Assembly: GCF_006715635.1 (NCBI RefSeq)
Contig: NZ_VFNP01000001.1
Location: forward strand, 496,001 to 560,000
Direction: 5' to 3'
Source: Streptomyces sp. SLBN-118
Lineage (GTDB): Bacteria > Actinomycetota > Actinomycetes > Streptomycetales > Streptomycetaceae
Length of the DNA stretch: 64,000 nucleotides
Shown here: positions 44,181 to 50,513 of the stretch, piece after piece
How positions within the stretch are numbered: position 1 is the first letter of the stretch
How the letters are laid out: every line of letters starts with the position of its first letter
Notes under the pieces: generated by a model
The model's input: the letters and a program-made list of their open reading frames with translations, nothing else
What the model was told of the DNA's origin: nothing
Database searches by the model: none
Made by a program: the position numbers and the translations under genes

Positions 44181-44774
44181 TCAGACGTACTCCGACGCCG
44201 CGTCCAGCAGCCAGTCCGCCAGATACCCGGCGAAGGACGAACGGACCAGCAGCCAGAACCCCGCCCTCGGCTCGTCCCGTGCCACCAGCACGATCTGCGC
44301 ACGGGCCAGGGTCGTCTGGGCACAGCGGCCAGGTCCCAGCGCACGCGGGTGCAGGTCCAGTGGGCAGCCGTGAGCCAGCAGGTCGCGGGCACGGGGGCCG
44401 GTGACGAGCAGGGTGGTGCGCTGGGCGGAGACATCCGTGACCGCTGCCGGCTCGTCCCCGGCGGCCGCCCGGATCTGGTTCTCCAGACCGGGCCCGCTGC
44501 CGCGGGGACCGACGAGGAGCCATTCGTCGGGGCCGAGCCAGAGTGCATGGAGATCACCGGCGTGTACGGCGGTGTTGGGTTCGAGGGGCAGTTGGAGGCC
44601 CAGGGCGAGTCCGACGGCGTCGGCTGCCGGGCCCTTGGGGTCGAGCCTGATGTTGAGCTGGGCCAGGAAGGGAAGTTCGGCCAGGCGCAGTTCGCCGCCA
44701 CTGGCGCGGGTGACCGCGGCGAAGCGGCCGGCGACGGACGCCAGGGGGCTGTGGCGGATTGCGGTGTCAGCCAT
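44181..44774 (-). CDS. soxG: Sarcosine oxidase gamma subunit
   Basis: Smallest-but-one subunit of heterotetrameric sarcosine oxidase, 197 residues, with the folate-binding aminomethyltransferase-like fold: RQSPLASV-like start (RHSPLASVAGRFAAVT), ALWLGPDEWLLVGP, DVSAQRTTLLVTGPRARDLL and FAGYLADWLLDAASEYV at the end. Its start overlaps the soxDA stop by eight bases, as in sox operons. It is the last gene of the six-gene run from the dimethylglycine oxidase gene (operon order DMGO, folD, glyA, soxB, soxDA, soxG). Confidence 0.93.
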   Translation of the reverse strand: MADTAIRHSPLASVAGRFAAVTRASGGELRLAELPFLAQLNIRLDPKGPAADAVGLALGLQLPLEPNTAVHAGDLHALWLGPDEWLLVGPRGSGPGLENQIRAAAGDEPAAVTDVSAQRTTLLVTGPRARDLLAHGCPLDLHPRALGPGRCAQTTLARAQIVLVARDEPRAGFWLLVRSSFAGYLADWLLDAASEYV

Positions 44775-47700
44775 CGCGGCGGGCTCCCTCGGGGTCGTAG
44801 AGGACGGGACTTGCGACGGTCACCGGGACCAGACGGTCGCCGACCGGCGCGTACAGCCGCTCGCCGATGCGGTCCCGGCCGCCCTTGATCAGGGCCAGCG
44901 CGAAGGTCCGGCCGAGCGCCGCGCTGTGGTAGCTGGAGGTGACGTGGCCGAGCATGGGTACGGGAGGCTCGGGCAGCACGCTGTCGGCGACCAGATGGGT
45001 GCCTTCGGGGAGGAAGGAGTCCGGGTCTTCGGGGAGCAGGCCGACGAGGTGCTTGCGGTCAGGACGTGTGGTGTCGGCGCGTGCGTGGGAGCGCTTGCCG
45101 ATGAAGTCGGTCTTCTTCTTGGACACCACCCAGCTCATGCCCAGGTCCTGCGGGGTGACCGTGCCGTCGGTGTCCTGGCCGATGATCGGGTAGCCCTTCT
45201 CGGCTCTCAGGACGTGCATGGTCTCGGTGCCGTACGGGGTGATCCCGAACGGGCTTCCGGCCGCGTACAGCGCCTCCCACAGCGCGCGGGCATCCCACGG
45301 CGACACGTTGATCTCGTAGGCCAGTTCGCCGGAGAAGCTGATCCGGCAGACCCGGGCCGGGATGTCCGCGACCGTGGACTCGCGCCACGCCATGAAGGGG
45401 AAGTCGTCGTTCGAGACGGCCAGTTCGGGAGCGAGGGCACCCAGTACGTCGCGGGAGTTCGGGCCGACGAGGGCGACGGTGGCCCACTGTTCGGTGACGG
45501 AGGTGCAGTGGACGCGCAGTTCGGGCCACTCGGTCTGCAGCCATTCCTCCATCCAGTCCAGGACGGTGGCCGCGTTGCCGGTCGTGGTGGTGACGAGGAA
45601 ACGGTCCTGGGCGAGGCGGATGACGGTTCCGTCGTCGAAGACCATGCCGTCGAGGCGGCACATGACGCCGTAGCGGATCATGCCGACCTTCAGGGTGCTC
45701 ATCATGTTGGTGTAGAGCAGGTCGAGAAAGGCGGCGGCGTCAGGACCCTGCACGTCGATCTTGCCGAGCGTGGAGGCGTCCATGAAGGCGACGCCCTCAC
45801 GGGCGGCGCGGCACTCACGGAGGACGGCGGCCTTCATGTCCTCGCCGTCCTGGGGGTAGTACCAGGGCCGCTTCCACTGACCGACGTTCTCGAAGAGAGC
45901 GCCATGGGCGGCATGCCAGTCGTGCAGGGCGGTCACGCGCACGGGGTCGTGGAGCGCGCCGCGGTCGCGGCCCGCGAGGGTGGCGAAGGAGACGGGCGTG
46001 TAGGGAGGGCGGAACGTCGTCGTGCCGAGCGCCGAGATGTCCACGCCCAGGAGCTCGGCAACAGTCCCGCTGGCCAGGACGCCTGAGGTCTTGCCCTGGT
46101 CGTTGGCTGTGCCGGCGGTGGTGTAGCGCTTGGTGTGCTCGACCGAGCGCATTCCGGCGCCGGTGGCGCGGGCGAGGTCGTCGACGGTGACATCGCGCTG
46201 GAGGTCCACGAAGCGGGGCGCGCCGGCGGGACCGGGGACGACGAAGACCTGCATGGGCGGGGACTGGGGCTCGTCCGCCGTCACCGGCAGCTCGCGTCGG
46301 CCGGTCACAAGGCCCTCGGCCTCGATCGCGCGGGTGCCCGCCGCGGCGCCTTGGGCCAGTACCGCCGAGAGACCGAATGCGCCGGCTGCGGAGCCTGCGA
46401 CCTCGACCGCCTGACGGCAGGTGTCGGGTACGAACGTGCCGAGCGCGTCGTCGTACCGCAGCTTGCCGCCCGCCTGGCTGAACAGGTGCGCTACGGGGTT
46501 CCAGCCGCCGGAGACCAGCAGCAGGTCGGCGCTGAACTCGCGGTGCCCCGCTGCCTCTCCATACGGAGTGACGGTCACCGCAGACAACCGCTGATCGCCC
46601 TCGGTGCCGGCCACGGCATGCCCGGCCAGCACCTCGATCCCGGCGTCCTCGGCGCGGCGCGCCCACTCCCCCGGTTCGGGGCGGGTGTCGACGACGGCAG
46701 CGATCTCCATACCCGCCGCCGCCAGATCGAGCGCGGCCGCGTAGGCGCTGTCGTTGGTGGTGAAGACGACGGCGCGGCGGCCGGGGAGGACGCCGTAACG
46801 GTTGGCGTACGTGCGCGCCGATGCCGCCAGCATGACGCCGGGGCGGTCGTTGCCGGCGAAGGCCAGCGAGCGCTCGTGCGCGCCGGTGGCCAGGACGACA
46901 CGGCGGGCACGGATGCGCCAGACACGCTCGCGGGAAACATGCTCGGGGGCTTCGCCGCCGAGGTGGTTGGTGCGGCGTTCGACGGCGAGGAGGTGGTTGT
47001 CGTCGTAGTAGCCGAAGAGGGTGGTGCGGCGCAGGATGCGGGTTTCCGGTGCGGCTTCGAGCAGCGCCTCGATATCGGCTGCCCAGTCGAGGAGTTGGCC
47101 GGTGCCGAGGAGACTGCCGCCCAGCTCGGGCTGGTCGTCGGCGAGGATGACGCGAGCGCCGCCGCGGGCGGCGGCGTCCGCGGCCGCGAGTCCGGCGGGG
47201 CCCGCTCCGACGACCAGCACGTCGCAGTGGGCGTGGACGGCGTCGTAGCGTGCGGGGTCGGGCTCGGTGGCGAGCCGTCCCTGTCCGGGGAGGCTGCTCG
47301 CGACGAGGCCGTCGTACAACTCCACGGCCGTCGCGGGCAGCATCGGCTCGGGGAACGGCTCCTCGATCTGGACGACCGCGTTGGGTTCCTCGACTCCGGC
47401 GGAGAGGATGCCGCGGGGGCGGCCGAGTTTGATGCTGGTGCCCGTCCGGATGATGCCGTTGGCGAGGAGGGCGGAGGCGAGGGTGTCGCCGCGGAAGCCT
47501 TGGTATGCCGTGCCGTCGAAGGTGAACGTGAGACGTTCCGCCCGGGCTGTGCGGCCGCCTGTGCTGAGGCGGAAGGGCTGAGTGCCGGTGCCGATGGCGG
47601 ATGCCAGGGGCTCCGCCCTTGGACCCCGGTCCTCAAACGCCGGAGGGGCTGGATTGTGCCGCTCGGCCTGCCCGTCCCGCGGACGATCCGGAGACGCCGG

Positions 47701-47994
47701 ACCGGCTGAAGGGGAGGCCGCCGGTTCCGGGCGTGGCTCGCCCGCGCGGTACACCGCCAGGATCTCGTTCGTCGCCGTGTCCCGGACCGCGTTGAACCAG
47801 CGGCGGCATCCCGACGCGTGGGTCCAGCGCTCCGCGAACGGGCCCTTGGGGTTGTCGCGGAAGAACAGGTAGCGGGCCCACTCCTGGTCGGTCAGGGCAG
47901 CGGAGTCCTCGGGATACGGAACGTGCGCCTGGCCGCCGTAGTGGAATTCGGCCTCGTCACGGGGCCCGCACCAGGGGCATGGGATGAGCAGCAT
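44767..47994 (-). CDS. soxDA: Sarcosine oxidase delta-alpha fusion
   Basis: Heterotetrameric sarcosine oxidase normally has separate SoxD (about 90-100 residues) and SoxA (about 950). Here one 1075-residue frame holds both. Residues 1-85 are SoxD with its zinc ligands (Cys6, Cys9, His59, Cys63). Residues 86-138 are a Pro/Ala-rich linker. Residues 139-1075 are SoxA, with the Fer2-like N-domain (FRGDTLASALLANGI), NAD motif GAGPAG (263-268), and a C-terminal GCV_T-like folate domain. No Met or Val codon occurs between residues 83 and 200, so SoxA cannot start separately at ATG or GTG. The linker is encoded by the apparent Streptomyces repeat at 47604-47655. The enzyme oxidises sarcosine to glycine plus methylene-THF and H2O2. 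Confidence 0.92.
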   Translation of the reverse strand: MLLIPCPWCGPRDEAEFHYGGQAHVPYPEDSAALTDQEWARYLFFRDNPKGPFAERWTHASGCRRWFNAVRDTATNEILAVYRAGEPRPEPAASPSAGPASPDRPRDGQAERHNPAPPAFEDRGPRAEPLASAIGTGTQPFRLSTGGRTARAERLTFTFDGTAYQGFRGDTLASALLANGIIRTGTSIKLGRPRGILSAGVEEPNAVVQIEEPFPEPMLPATAVELYDGLVASSLPGQGRLATEPDPARYDAVHAHCDVLVVGAGPAGLAAADAAARGGARVILADDQPELGGSLLGTGQLLDWAADIEALLEAAPETRILRRTTLFGYYDDNHLLAVERRTNHLGGEAPEHVSRERVWRIRARRVVLATGAHERSLAFAGNDRPGVMLAASARTYANRYGVLPGRRAVVFTTNDSAYAAALDLAAAGMEIAAVVDTRPEPGEWARRAEDAGIEVLAGHAVAGTEGDQRLSAVTVTPYGEAAGHREFSADLLLVSGGWNPVAHLFSQAGGKLRYDDALGTFVPDTCRQAVEVAGSAAGAFGLSAVLAQGAAAGTRAIEAEGLVTGRRELPVTADEPQSPPMQVFVVPGPAGAPRFVDLQRDVTVDDLARATGAGMRSVEHTKRYTTAGTANDQGKTSGVLASGTVAELLGVDISALGTTTFRPPYTPVSFATLAGRDRGALHDPVRVTALHDWHAAHGALFENVGQWKRPWYYPQDGEDMKAAVLRECRAAREGVAFMDASTLGKIDVQGPDAAAFLDLLYTNMMSTLKVGMIRYGVMCRLDGMVFDDGTVIRLAQDRFLVTTTTGNAATVLDWMEEWLQTEWPELRVHCTSVTEQWATVALVGPNSRDVLGALAPELAVSNDDFPFMAWRESTVADIPARVCRISFSGELAYEINVSPWDARALWEALYAAGSPFGITPYGTETMHVLRAEKGYPIIGQDTDGTVTPQDLGMSWVVSKKKTDFIGKRSHARADTTRPDRKHLVGLLPEDPDSFLPEGTHLVADSVLPEPPVPMLGHVTSSYHSAALGRTFALALIKGGRDRIGERLYAPVGDRLVPVTVASPVLYDPEGARRDG
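47604..47655 (-). repeat. GC-rich Streptomyces intergenic-type repeat inside the soxDA coding sequence
   Basis: On the minus strand this segment reads CCCCTCCGGCGTTTGAGGAC then CGGGGTCCAAGGGCGGAGCC. I recognise this from the 3' flanks of many Streptomyces genes, where it is non-coding. Here it lies in frame and encodes NPAPPAFEDRGPRAEPL of the soxD-soxA linker. Recognition is from memory; a copy count was not possible. Confidence 0.7.
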
Positions 47995-48006: not shown

Positions 48007-49239
48007 CTAGTGGGCCACCGCGGCCGCGCCGTGCTCGTCCACGAGCGCGCCGGTGGTGAATCGGTCGAGCGAGAAGGGGGCGTTGAGGTGGTGGGGGGTG
48101 TCGTGGGCGATGGTGTGGGCGTAGACCCAGCCGACGCCCGGGGTGGCCTTGAAGCCTCCCGTGCCCCAGCCGCAGTTGAGGTAGAGGTTGTCCACCGGGC
48201 TGAGCCCGACAATCGGCGAGGCGTCAGGGCTGACGTCGACGATGCCGCCCCAGGTACGCAGCACATGGGCGCGGGCGAAGACCGGGAAGAGTTCCAGGGC
48301 CGCTGACATCTGATGCTCGATGATGTGGAAGGCGCCGCGCTGTGTGTAGGCGTTGTAGGCGTCGATGCCGGCGCCCATCACCAGTTCGCCCTTGTGGGCC
48401 TGGCTGACATACACGTGTACCGCGTTGGACATCACGACCGTGGGGTGCACCGGCTCGAGCAGTTCGGAGACCAGTGCCTGCAGCGGGTGGCTCTGCAGTG
48501 GCAGTTCGAAGCCCGCCATGGTGGCGAGCACCGAGGTGTGCCCGGCCGAGCATAGCGCCACCTTGCCCGCGGCGATGGGGCCGAGCGTCGTCTGTACGCC
48601 GGTGACCCGACCGCCCTGGATGTCGATGCCGGTGACTTCGCAGTTCTGGATGATGTCGATCCCGGCGGCGTCGGCCGAGCGGGCCAGTCCCCAGGCGACA
48701 TGGTCGTGCTTGGCGATGCCGGCCCTCGGCTGGTAGGTGCCGCCCATCACCGGATAGCGCACGTCGGGCGAGATGTTGACGATGGGGCAGACGTCCTTGA
48801 CCGCTTGCGGGTCCAGCCATTCGGCATCGACGCCGTTGAGCCGGTTGGCCTCGACGCGGCGCACACTGTCGCGGACGTCCTGCAGGCTGTGGGCGAGGTT
48901 CAGCACGCCGCGCTGGGAGAAGAGGATCGGGTAGTCGAGTTCGTCCGCCAGCCCTTCCCACAGTCTGAGGGCGTGCTCGTAGATTCCGGCGCTCTCGTCC
49001 CACAGGTAGTTGGAGCGGATGATGGTGGTGTTGCGGGCCATGTTGCCGCCCGCGAGCCAGCCCTTCTCCAGCACGGCCACATTGGTGATGCCGTGGTTCT
49101 TCGCCAGGTAGTGGGCAGTCGCGAGACCGTGTCCGCCGCCGCCCACGATCACCACGTCGTACGACCGCTTCGGCTCGGGCGTGCGCCACAGCCAGTCGGG
49201 GTGCTCGGGGAGGTCGGCGCCCGGGGTGCGGGGGCTCAT
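48007..49239 (-). CDS. soxB: Sarcosine oxidase beta subunit
   Basis: Flavoprotein subunit of 410 residues that oxidises sarcosine. The FAD motif is [17 protein letters not shown] (29-45), and AKHDHVAW (176-183) is the region where FMN is attached covalently to a histidine in studied enzymes. The C-terminal block [14 protein letters not shown] closes the DAO fold. The ATG overlaps the glyA stop (ATGA), and soxDA follows after 12 bases, which shows tight operon organisation. Confidence 0.95.
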
Positions 49240-50513
49240 CGGGCGTCTCCGATCAGGTGCGGGTACAGCGGGTGCTTGGCGGCCAGCGCCTCCGTACGGG
49301 CGCGCAGCGCCGCGACGTCGGGAGCGGGCTGGAGGGCGAGCGCGATGATGTCGGCGACCTCTGCGAAGTCCACTTCGGTGAAGCCGCGGGTGGCCAGGGC
49401 CGGGGTGCCGATCCGCAGGCCGGATGTGACCATGGGCGGACGGGGATCGAAGGGGACGGCATTGCGGTTGACCGTGATGCCGATCTCGTGGAGCCGGTCC
49501 TCCGCCTGCTGCCCGTCCAGCTCCGACTCCCTGAGGTCGACGAGGACCAGATGGACGTCGGTGCCGCCGGTCAGGACGCTGACTCCGGCCGCGGCCGCGT
49601 CGGGCTTCGTGAGCCGTTCGGCGAGGAGATGGGCGCCGGCGAGTGTGCGGGCCTGCCGCTCGGCGAACGCCGGCGATGCGGCGAGCTTGAACGACACTGC
49701 CTTCGCGGCGATGACGTGTTCCAGCGGCCCGCCCTGCATACCGGGGAACACCGCCGAGTTGATCTTCTTGGCGAGGCCGGCGTCGTTGGTGAGAATGACG
49801 CCGCCGCGCGGGCCGCCCAGTGTCTTGTGGGTGGTCGTGGTGGTGACATGGGCGTGCGGTACCGGACTGGGGTGCAGCCCGGCGGCCACGAGGCCCGCGA
49901 AGTGGGCCATGTCGACCATCAGATACGCGCCCACCTCGTCGGCGATCCGCCGGAATTCGGCGAAGTCCAGCTGCCGGGGATACGCCGACCATCCCGCGAT
50001 GATCATCTTGGGGTGGTGTTCCTTGGCGAGCCGCTCCACCTCGTCCATGTCCACCAGGTTGTCGGCCTGGTCCACGTGGTAGGGCACGACATTGAGCATC
50101 TTGCCGCTGTAGTTGATGCGCATGCCGTGGGTGAGGTGCCCGCCGTGTGCGAGGTCGAGGCCGAGGACGGTGTCACCTGGCTTCAGCAGGCCGAAGAAGA
50201 CCGCGGTGTTGGCCTGGGCGCCCGAGTGCGGCTGCACATTGGCGAATCCGGCGCCGAAGAGGGACTTGACGCGTTCGATGGCCAGCCGCTCGGTCACGTC
50301 GACGTGTTCGCAGCCGCCGTAGTAGCGCCGGCCCGGGTAGCCCTCGGCGTACTTGTTCGTCAGGACCGAACCCTGGGCCTCCATGACCGCCGAGGGCGCG
50401 AAGTTCTCCGAAGCGATCATCTCCAGGGTGGACTGCTGGCGCTCCAGCTCCGCGGAGAGAGCGGCATGGACCTCCGGGTCCAGCTCGGCGAGCGGCGCGT
50501 TCAGGGTGTTCAT
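49236..50513 (-). CDS. glyA: Serine hydroxymethyltransferase
   Basis: PLP enzyme of 425 residues interconverting glycine plus 5,10-methylene-THF with serine plus THF. The PLP lysine is Lys230 in [35 protein letters not shown] and [11 protein letters not shown] are the N-terminal hallmarks. Embedded between folD and soxB with overlapping starts and stops, it would use both products of sarcosine oxidation (glycine and methylene-THF) and regenerate THF. It is probably a pathway-dedicated copy besides a housekeeping glyA elsewhere. Confidence 0.95.

Follow-up and report, generated by a model that had tools for sequence, protein, structure and literature searches.

The genome of Streptomyces sp. 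SLBN-118 encodes the delta and alpha subunits of sarcosine oxidase in a single open reading frame (soxDA), which raises the question of what joins the two subunits and whether they are made as one chain. The locus was examined in a 64,000-nucleotide stretch of this genome (the window) and compared with related loci. The best explanation is that soxD and soxA are one gene across a clade of the Streptomycetaceae, that most of the linkers in this clade are translated copies of a mostly intergenic repeat, and that one delta-alpha chain is most likely the product (probability about 0.88).

Layout of the sox locus

The preliminary description of this DNA had proposed one 1075-residue soxD-soxA frame. 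Its coordinates and length were as claimed, and both parts were matched by family profiles (Table 1): SoxD by PF04267 at residues 3-83 and TIGR01374 at residues 3-86 (125.0 bits, cut-off 116.5), and SoxA by TIGR01372 (1280.3 bits, cut-off 1164). From residue 144 the fused protein aligned with the solved alpha chains 1vrq_A and 2gag_A. SoxA, SoxB, and SoxD all exceeded their NCBIfam cut-offs; SoxG scored 78.7 against PF04268 (cut-off 21) and 124.7 bits against NCBIfam TIGR01375, under its cut-off of 143.95. All four subunit families are thus encoded together, in the order soxB, soxDA, soxG; other operons run soxBDAG. The soxDA gene is separated by 12 nt from the end of the upstream soxB frame, and its own end is overlapped by the start of soxG by 8 nt. 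The true soxB start is probably inside the open frame, because the TIGR01373 match begins only at frame residue 266. Residues C6, C9, H59, and C63, which we take to be the zinc ligands of the Cys/Cys/His/Cys delta-subunit site, were present in the window SoxD and kept in all 128 SoxD sequences matching from residue 1, a set that includes duplicate loci.

Table 1. Features of the sox locus, in window coordinates
Feature	Position	Strand	Remarks
soxB-containing open frame	48007..49992	-	TIGR01373 at frame residues 266-653
fused soxDA gene	44767..47994	-	1075 aa; ATG start; stop at 44767-44769
SoxD domain	47743..47994	-	residues 1-84 (SoxD extent about 1-86)
soxDA linker	47581..47742	-	residues 85-138
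translated dispersed repeat	47604..47655	-	core CCAGCCCCTCCGGCGTTTGAGGA at 47630-47652, read as NPAPPAFEDRGPRAEPL
SoxA part	44770..47580	-	residues 139-1075
soxG	44181..44774	-	PF04268 above cut-off

Distribution of the fusion

In an 87-row tree of SoxA, 61 rows formed a clade (SH-aLRT 99) in which every row was fused and none was separate. The tree leaves out 29 distant rows (28 separate rows and L093), its outgroup is not one side of any branch, and two rows fall on the wrong side. Linkers in the clade ranged from 114 to 411 nt. The best 120 of 7998 database rows, window protein included, all spanned the query at 1068-1129 aa, although a full-length query favours fused proteins in such a set. 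Loci and proteins came from best-match lists and genome samples, and the counts are not natural frequencies. Four of the 110 loci first collected (L062, L064, L074, and L076) were removed because they lacked a SoxD match or gave no match of any kind, three of them being cut by contig ends; L064 has a SoxA locus without SoxD, and the DNA preceding its SoxA is unrelated, which may reflect misassembly or a real loss. Six of the remaining 106 loci were duplicates, as were seven of the 23 loci added later.

In other Actinomycetota, separate soxD and soxA are adjacent and in the same order as in the window, but have no linker, and overlap by 4 nt in 49 of the 51 rows with a usable start, the soxA start being taken as the one nearest the soxD stop. 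Fusions were also found beyond the clade, in L059 and L061 (Streptomycetaceae) and L093 (Paractinoplanes). An assembly error was rejected because the 61 distinct clade rows agree. A recent insertion in this one strain alone was rejected as well: relatives P0002 to P0004 (91% identical) are also fused, with differing repeat-like linkers. No report of a fused soxDA was found in the titles and abstract openings of those open-licence PubMed Central articles that were listed as matches.

A repeat of intergenic DNA in the linker

The window linker differed in composition from the domains on either side. Its mean codon log-odds was -0.269, compared with values between +0.254 and +0.309 for the two domains, under a model trained on 25 window ORFs chosen by GC content, soxDA itself possibly among them; its GC3 was 0.70, against 0.89-0.92. 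The residues NPAPPAFEDRGPRAEPL are encoded by 47605-47655. A 26-mer from this stretch had a single occurrence in the window when up to 3 mismatches were allowed, and 100 shuffled sequences gave a mean of 0.00. In the whole 7.79 Mb genome the 23-base core was found at 51 places with up to 3 mismatches, and its reversed control at none. A 181-nt linker query had 42 genome matches at E ≤ 0.01, self included; in two of these a different part of the linker was matched. A SoxA coding piece of equal length had three, self included.

According to a codon-usage gene call, 48 of the 51 core copies were intergenic, and 31 of these 48 sat between convergent genes. The claim that the repeat has similar copies elsewhere, mainly in non-coding DNA, was therefore upheld by the count. 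The other three copies overlap genes, soxDA among them. Elsewhere in this genome, the repeat encodes the predicted N-terminal end of an MFS transporter and provides a third gene with its stop codon. An Rfam search of seven copy-bearing loci at E up to 0.05 gave a single match, which at 23.8 bits (gathering score 120) was taken as chance. No account of this Streptomyces repeat was found in the titles and abstract openings of the open-licence PubMed Central articles listed as matches, nor in the parts consulted of PMC4681348, PMC12207403, and PMC1590033.

Repeat content was not confined to the window linker. At a threshold of 8 bits against profiles built from intergenic copies, 51 of the 61 clade linkers matched and none of 504 control coding windows did; counting all fused linkers longer than 50 nt, the figure was 51 of 63. 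The other 10 clade linkers did not exceed this threshold: L031, L038, and L172 matched more weakly, and those of L077 and L178 are Pro/Ala-rich tracts. Beyond the clade, these profiles detected no repeat in L059 or L061, and the L093 junction of 7 residues, too short to score, shows none. In some rows, P0004 and P0007 among them, the automatic linker cut extended into SoxA. Most of the fused linkers are copies of the repeat at differing degrees of decay.

The L049 genome matched its own linker at no fewer than 39 other places (81-91% identity over 102-160 bp), with two short matches besides, and all 29 places inspected were called intergenic. The L049 linker element shared 95-96% identity with the linkers of L058 and L075, and no more than 91% with the long matches in its own genome. 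Because it is closer to those two linkers, the copy, after its entry into the linker, appears to be inherited vertically along with soxDA.

Selection on the reading frame

The 52 linkers compared contained no in-frame stop in 3367 codons, where 49.5 would be expected from composition, and the other five frames contained 14-90 stops. Every fused linker was a multiple of three in length, even though linker length changed 47 times or more within the clade, and no row inside the clade was out of frame. By comparison, the length differences between 29 intergenic copies and the sox copy, taken modulo 3, were 0 in 13, 1 in 8, and 2 in 8. The ratio pN/pS was 0.67 in the linker and 0.22 in SoxA (17 pairs). 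Because the linkers are related to one another, any test that treats each as a separate count overstates significance. These comparisons show the reading frame of the linker to be under selection, which purges stops and holds the frame but constrains the amino acids only weakly.

The preliminary description was correct that alpha has no ATG or GTG start of its own: between residues 83 and 200 the soxDA frame contains neither codon, and no TTG either. When CTG, ATT, ATC, and ATA were also checked, the weaker candidates in these residues were a CTG at residue 130 and five ATC codons. An in-frame ATG, GTG, or TTG was present in 33 of the 52 clade linkers, the window linker not among them, and a separate alpha is therefore still possible in some species. 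The open frame could in principle reflect a sequencing error or the chance openness of GC-rich DNA, with delta and alpha still made separately. Stops are scarce in such DNA, the +1 frame of the linker being stop-free in 42 of the 52, and the CTG and ATC codons are possible weak starts, but the consistent frame in all 61 distinct clade rows, the preserved multiples of three, and the missing start codons in the window protein make this explanation extremely improbable.

The repeat might also act as nucleic acid, its translation being incidental and its role that of a terminator or attenuator between the two genes. Apart from the frequent convergent-gene setting, an inverted partner was found for 24 of the 48 intergenic copies, and two of three stretches folded gave hairpins of at least 20 bp at about -53 kcal/mol (the third, cut through its pair, had z -1.69). 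However, an inverted partner was found for 0 of 40 linker copies, which are related and not independent; the window copy folded no better than its shuffles (z 0.17); and no terminator-like site was found in 47400-47800 by a scan that needs a T tail, which Streptomyces terminators may lack. A terminator role for the linker copy was rejected on these three grounds, and we regard a role of this kind as very unlikely.

Taken together, the frame, the intergenic home of the repeat, and the shared fusion indicate that a repeat which as a rule is non-coding here links two protein domains. The preliminary description had read the locus in this way, and its in-frame, elsewhere untranslated repeat and its alpha without a start of its own both stood; it was incomplete in that the fusion is a trait of the 61-row clade and not a local event. 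A single delta-alpha chain is predicted in the cell, and by extension a three-chain enzyme in place of a four-chain one. Because selection keeps the frame but constrains residues only weakly, the repeat is probably a flexible tether, with Gly, Pro, Ala, and Glu as its abundant residues. AlphaFold gave pLDDT below 50 across residues 91-138, a long stretch without secondary structure, in a model (mean pLDDT 63.9, pTM 0.53) in which many other stretches were low too and which is too weak to place delta.

Origin of the fusion

Separate soxD and soxA usually share a 4-nt overlap, so fusion could have occurred in one step: any 3n+1 nt of stop-free sequence inserted immediately upstream of it would carry the frame past the soxD stop. 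One strand of the repeat often offers a suitable open frame, with PARPAFEDEA or PAPPAFEDRG as its translation. We tentatively suggest that a repeat landing at this overlap, in an ancestor of Streptomyces and its neighbouring genus, fused the genes in this way, and that the repeat family is more generally a source of stop-free linkers, of tails, and of stop codons for proteins.

It is also conceivable, and we hold it equally tentatively, that the genes were already fused, through a small shift in frame and across a linker that was short or rich in Pro and Ala, when the repeat entered this tolerant linker, once or several times. Fusions without a detected repeat (L059, L061, L077, L178, and L093) are in keeping with this order, as are the at least 7 changes that repeat detection requires among fused rows of the 87-row tree and the case of Actinacidiphila oryziradicis (L059), which has 131 copies in its genome and none detected in its linker. 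Against it, similar repeat linkers occur in both main fused branches (PAPPAFEDRG in the window and, in the neighbouring genus, PAPPAFEERG in L180 and APPGFEEQG in L170), and a two-state model gave a probability of 0.76 for the repeat at the clade root, though equal-cost parsimony was tied at 7 changes either way. The two histories agree on the present nature of the linker.

Relation to known systems

Heterotetrameric sarcosine oxidase of known structure (PDB 1vrq, 2gag, and 3ad7) has the same subunit families as the window, but delta and alpha are separate chains there. Because they share one frame here, the window system is, by its DNA, a fused variant of that enzyme. Rickettsia palindromic elements are dispersed palindromic repeats found in frame within protein-coding genes, many of them unrelated, according to the portions consulted of PMC10969869. 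By this description the sox repeat resembles them at the DNA level, being dispersed, capable of forming hairpins, and open in frame inside a conserved gene; it differs in joining two subunits of one enzyme and in the predominantly intergenic location of its copies (48 of 51 in its own genome).

The fused clade offers a many-species case of non-coding repeat DNA becoming part of a conserved enzyme, with intergenic copies in the same genomes as built-in controls that separate selection on frame from selection on amino acids. It also points to a specific way in which genes could fuse in one step, by means of the common 4-nt gene overlap. Database names for the same fused protein alternate between 'delta' and 'alpha', an inconsistency for which the fusion may account.

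The soxDA gene and its linker

At its strongest, the evidence supports a dispersed intergenic repeat serving as the linker, kept in frame by selection, of a conserved fusion between the delta and alpha subunits of sarcosine oxidase. The preliminary description had claimed that the delta (SoxD) and alpha (SoxA) subunits form one frame with no Met or Val codon in residues 83-200, and both points held: soxDA is a single open gene, and neither ATG, GTG nor TTG codons were found in that stretch. Profile matches assigned residues 1-86 to SoxD and residues from approximately 139 onward to SoxA. Residues 1-91 or 1-92 aligned with solved delta chains (99 residues), and the alignment of solved alpha chains began at residue 144, preceded by 10-11 residues of their own, so that about 33 residues of soxDA have no counterpart in the solved chains. 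The linker (residues 85-138) differs in its codons from the remainder of the gene, with a mean log-odds in a codon-usage model of -0.269, versus +0.254 for SoxD and +0.288 to +0.309 for SoxA, and a GC3 of 0.70 versus 0.89-0.92. The end of soxB is 12 nt upstream of soxDA, and soxG overlaps the soxDA end by 8 nt.

Coordinates of soxDA and of in-gene copies of the repeat in Streptomyces sp. SLBN-118
Feature	Gene	Strand	Repeat	Description
soxDA	47994..44767	minus	26-mer at 47630-47655	single frame, ATG to stop, 1075 residues
MFS transporter (PF07690)	L023:1471-2733		G000:C2:2990270-2990292	predicted N-terminus reads MPHPADVEHPPAPPAIEERGPG, the repeat
Predicted gene of locus L029	ends at about 1504	minus	G000:C1:2087578-2087600	stop is a TGA within the repeat

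The repeat in Streptomyces genomes

The 26-mer occurs once in the window. The 23-base core of the repeat was found at 51 places in the strain's own genome (up to 3 mismatches), versus none for a reversed control. All 51 were fetched, and genes were called with a codon-usage model trained on 25 open reading frames of the window; 48 copies were intergenic and 3 overlapped genes. The intergenic copies lay between convergent genes (31) or tandem genes (16), with one unassigned, and 24 of the 48 were accompanied by an inverted partner no more than 110 nt away. Two of three folded stretches gave hairpins of about -53 kcal/mol; the third had been cut through its pair. Because of these inverted partners and hairpins, the element is probably a terminator-like palindrome. 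With a somewhat broader pattern, allowing at most 2 mismatches, copies were found in 77 of the 101 genomes sampled from the genus, as many as 327 in one genome. Among 41 genomes reached through loci, the repeat pattern was found in 24 and was absent from 6 Streptomycetaceae and from 11 genomes counted as non-Streptomycetaceae by their record titles.

The frame in which the MFS transporter reads the repeat is that of soxDA, which makes it a second in-frame use, at a predicted N-terminus. The predicted L029 gene reads it in the stop-bearing frame, ending ASPSGV.

Linkers derived from the repeat

That the linker contains a repeat from non-coding DNA, as previously proposed, was confirmed with two profile models for which intergenic copies from two genomes were the sole input: 51 of 63 linkers scored above 8 bits, versus none of 504 control coding windows. 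The best match to a 23-base pattern had 0 or 1 mismatch in 28 of 52 fused linkers, a set that included three duplicate pairs and one linker too short to score (L093), and the pattern never had fewer than 7 mismatches in 1020 scorable control windows in SoxA. Of 120 database linkers, counting that of the window, 56 had a six-residue word in common with the translated sequences of 37 non-sox copies found in the genome that the window comes from; control words gave 6/110120 in SoxA and 0/9360 in SoxD. In the DNA of 64 fused genes, all 22 matches to CCGG(C/G/A)(G/A)T..GAG shared one reading frame. The linker of Streptomyces sp. AC550_RSS872 (L049) had at least 39 matches elsewhere in its own genome (81-91% identity over 102-160 bp) and at least two short ones; all 29 inspected were called intergenic, one with no gene called on either side.

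Variant linkers were also observed. Two database proteins, P0002 and P0004, carry LQ(P/S)LR(R/P)LRSGVRGGAP, which, judged from the protein sequence alone, resembles a translation of the linker repeat in the next frame, one base further on. The L034 linker (330 nt) contains three ARPA(S/F)EDEA peptides, suggestive of a duplication of the element, and in that of L078 (411 nt) a long stretch rich in Ala, Pro and Val precedes one repeat copy. L112, L114 and L172 are among linkers with a different motif ahead of a partial repeat. This motif in L112 is GEGGHNPPTGPHP, encoded by GGGTGGGCACAACCC; with this linker as query, that part matched elsewhere rarely and weakly. The sox linker may therefore draw on a second repeat family as well.

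Distribution and history of the fusion

Fused soxDA, scored where a match covered the entire 293-residue query without a stop, was found in 9 of 61 genomes of the genus, and a strongly matching separate soxD/soxA pair in 6 of 61. In two genomes (G001 and G033) the fused gene coexists with a second, separate pair whose identity to the query is about 61-69%. The best 120 of 7998 database matches, a list biased toward fused proteins and including the window's, were all full-length (1068-1129 aa), and their names were inconsistent, delta or alpha. In a SoxA tree of 87 sequences, a clade of 61 (SH-aLRT 99) contained no separate genes and took in members of a second genus. Two loci, L059 and L061, are fused yet fall outside this clade; a single origin of fused genes was not rejected in an earlier test of 32 sequences, 16 of them fused (AU p 0.0885). 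The fused gene of Paractinoplanes (L093) has a junction of 7 residues. In Streptomyces mexicanus Marseille-Q0842 (L064), SoxA lacks the SoxD part and is bordered, upstream of 3000, by unrelated DNA containing a C run, reflecting either misassembly or real loss.

Where the genes are separate, 51 of 52 had a usable start, taken as the candidate nearest the soxD stop, and soxD and soxA overlapped by 4 nt in 49 and by 1 nt in 2. As deduced from the frames, a 3n+1 insertion upstream of this overlap would fuse the genes in one step. Parsimony with equal costs required 7 changes with the repeat in the ancestral linker versus 7 without; a costlier gain favoured an ancestral repeat and a costlier loss disfavoured it. 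A two-state model gave 0.76 for the repeat in the first fused gene. The L049 element was inherited together with the gene, because its identity to the linkers of L058 (96%) and L075 (95%) exceeds that to the long own-genome matches listed (at most 91%). The preliminary description was right about the phenomenon, the repeat as linker; the repeat as the cause of the fusion is a proposal, and a single delta-alpha chain in the cell is a prediction from sequence. By their description in a review (PMC10969869), Rickettsia palindromic elements are the closest known parallel.

Selection on the linker frame

The frame used in 52 linkers of the clade had no stop in 3367 codons, versus 49.5 expected from base composition, and the remaining five frames had 14, 90, 52, 39, and 23. 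The length of each of the 64 fused linkers is divisible by three, as the definition of a fused gene requires; independent of that definition, the 61-member clade has no out-of-frame member despite the at least 47 length changes needed. Among the 29 intergenic copies of the L049 genome, length differences from the sox copy modulo 3 (0/1/2) were 13/8/8, and the sox frame was open in 20. The clade frame data and these open copies indicate that the element often supplies an open frame, which selection then maintains. An inverted partner was present in 0 of 40 linker copies, the outcome to be expected were hairpins not tolerated within the gene; the copies share descent and hence are not 40 independent observations. 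In a comparison of 17 pairs of relatives, pN/pS was 0.67 for linkers and 0.22 for SoxA.
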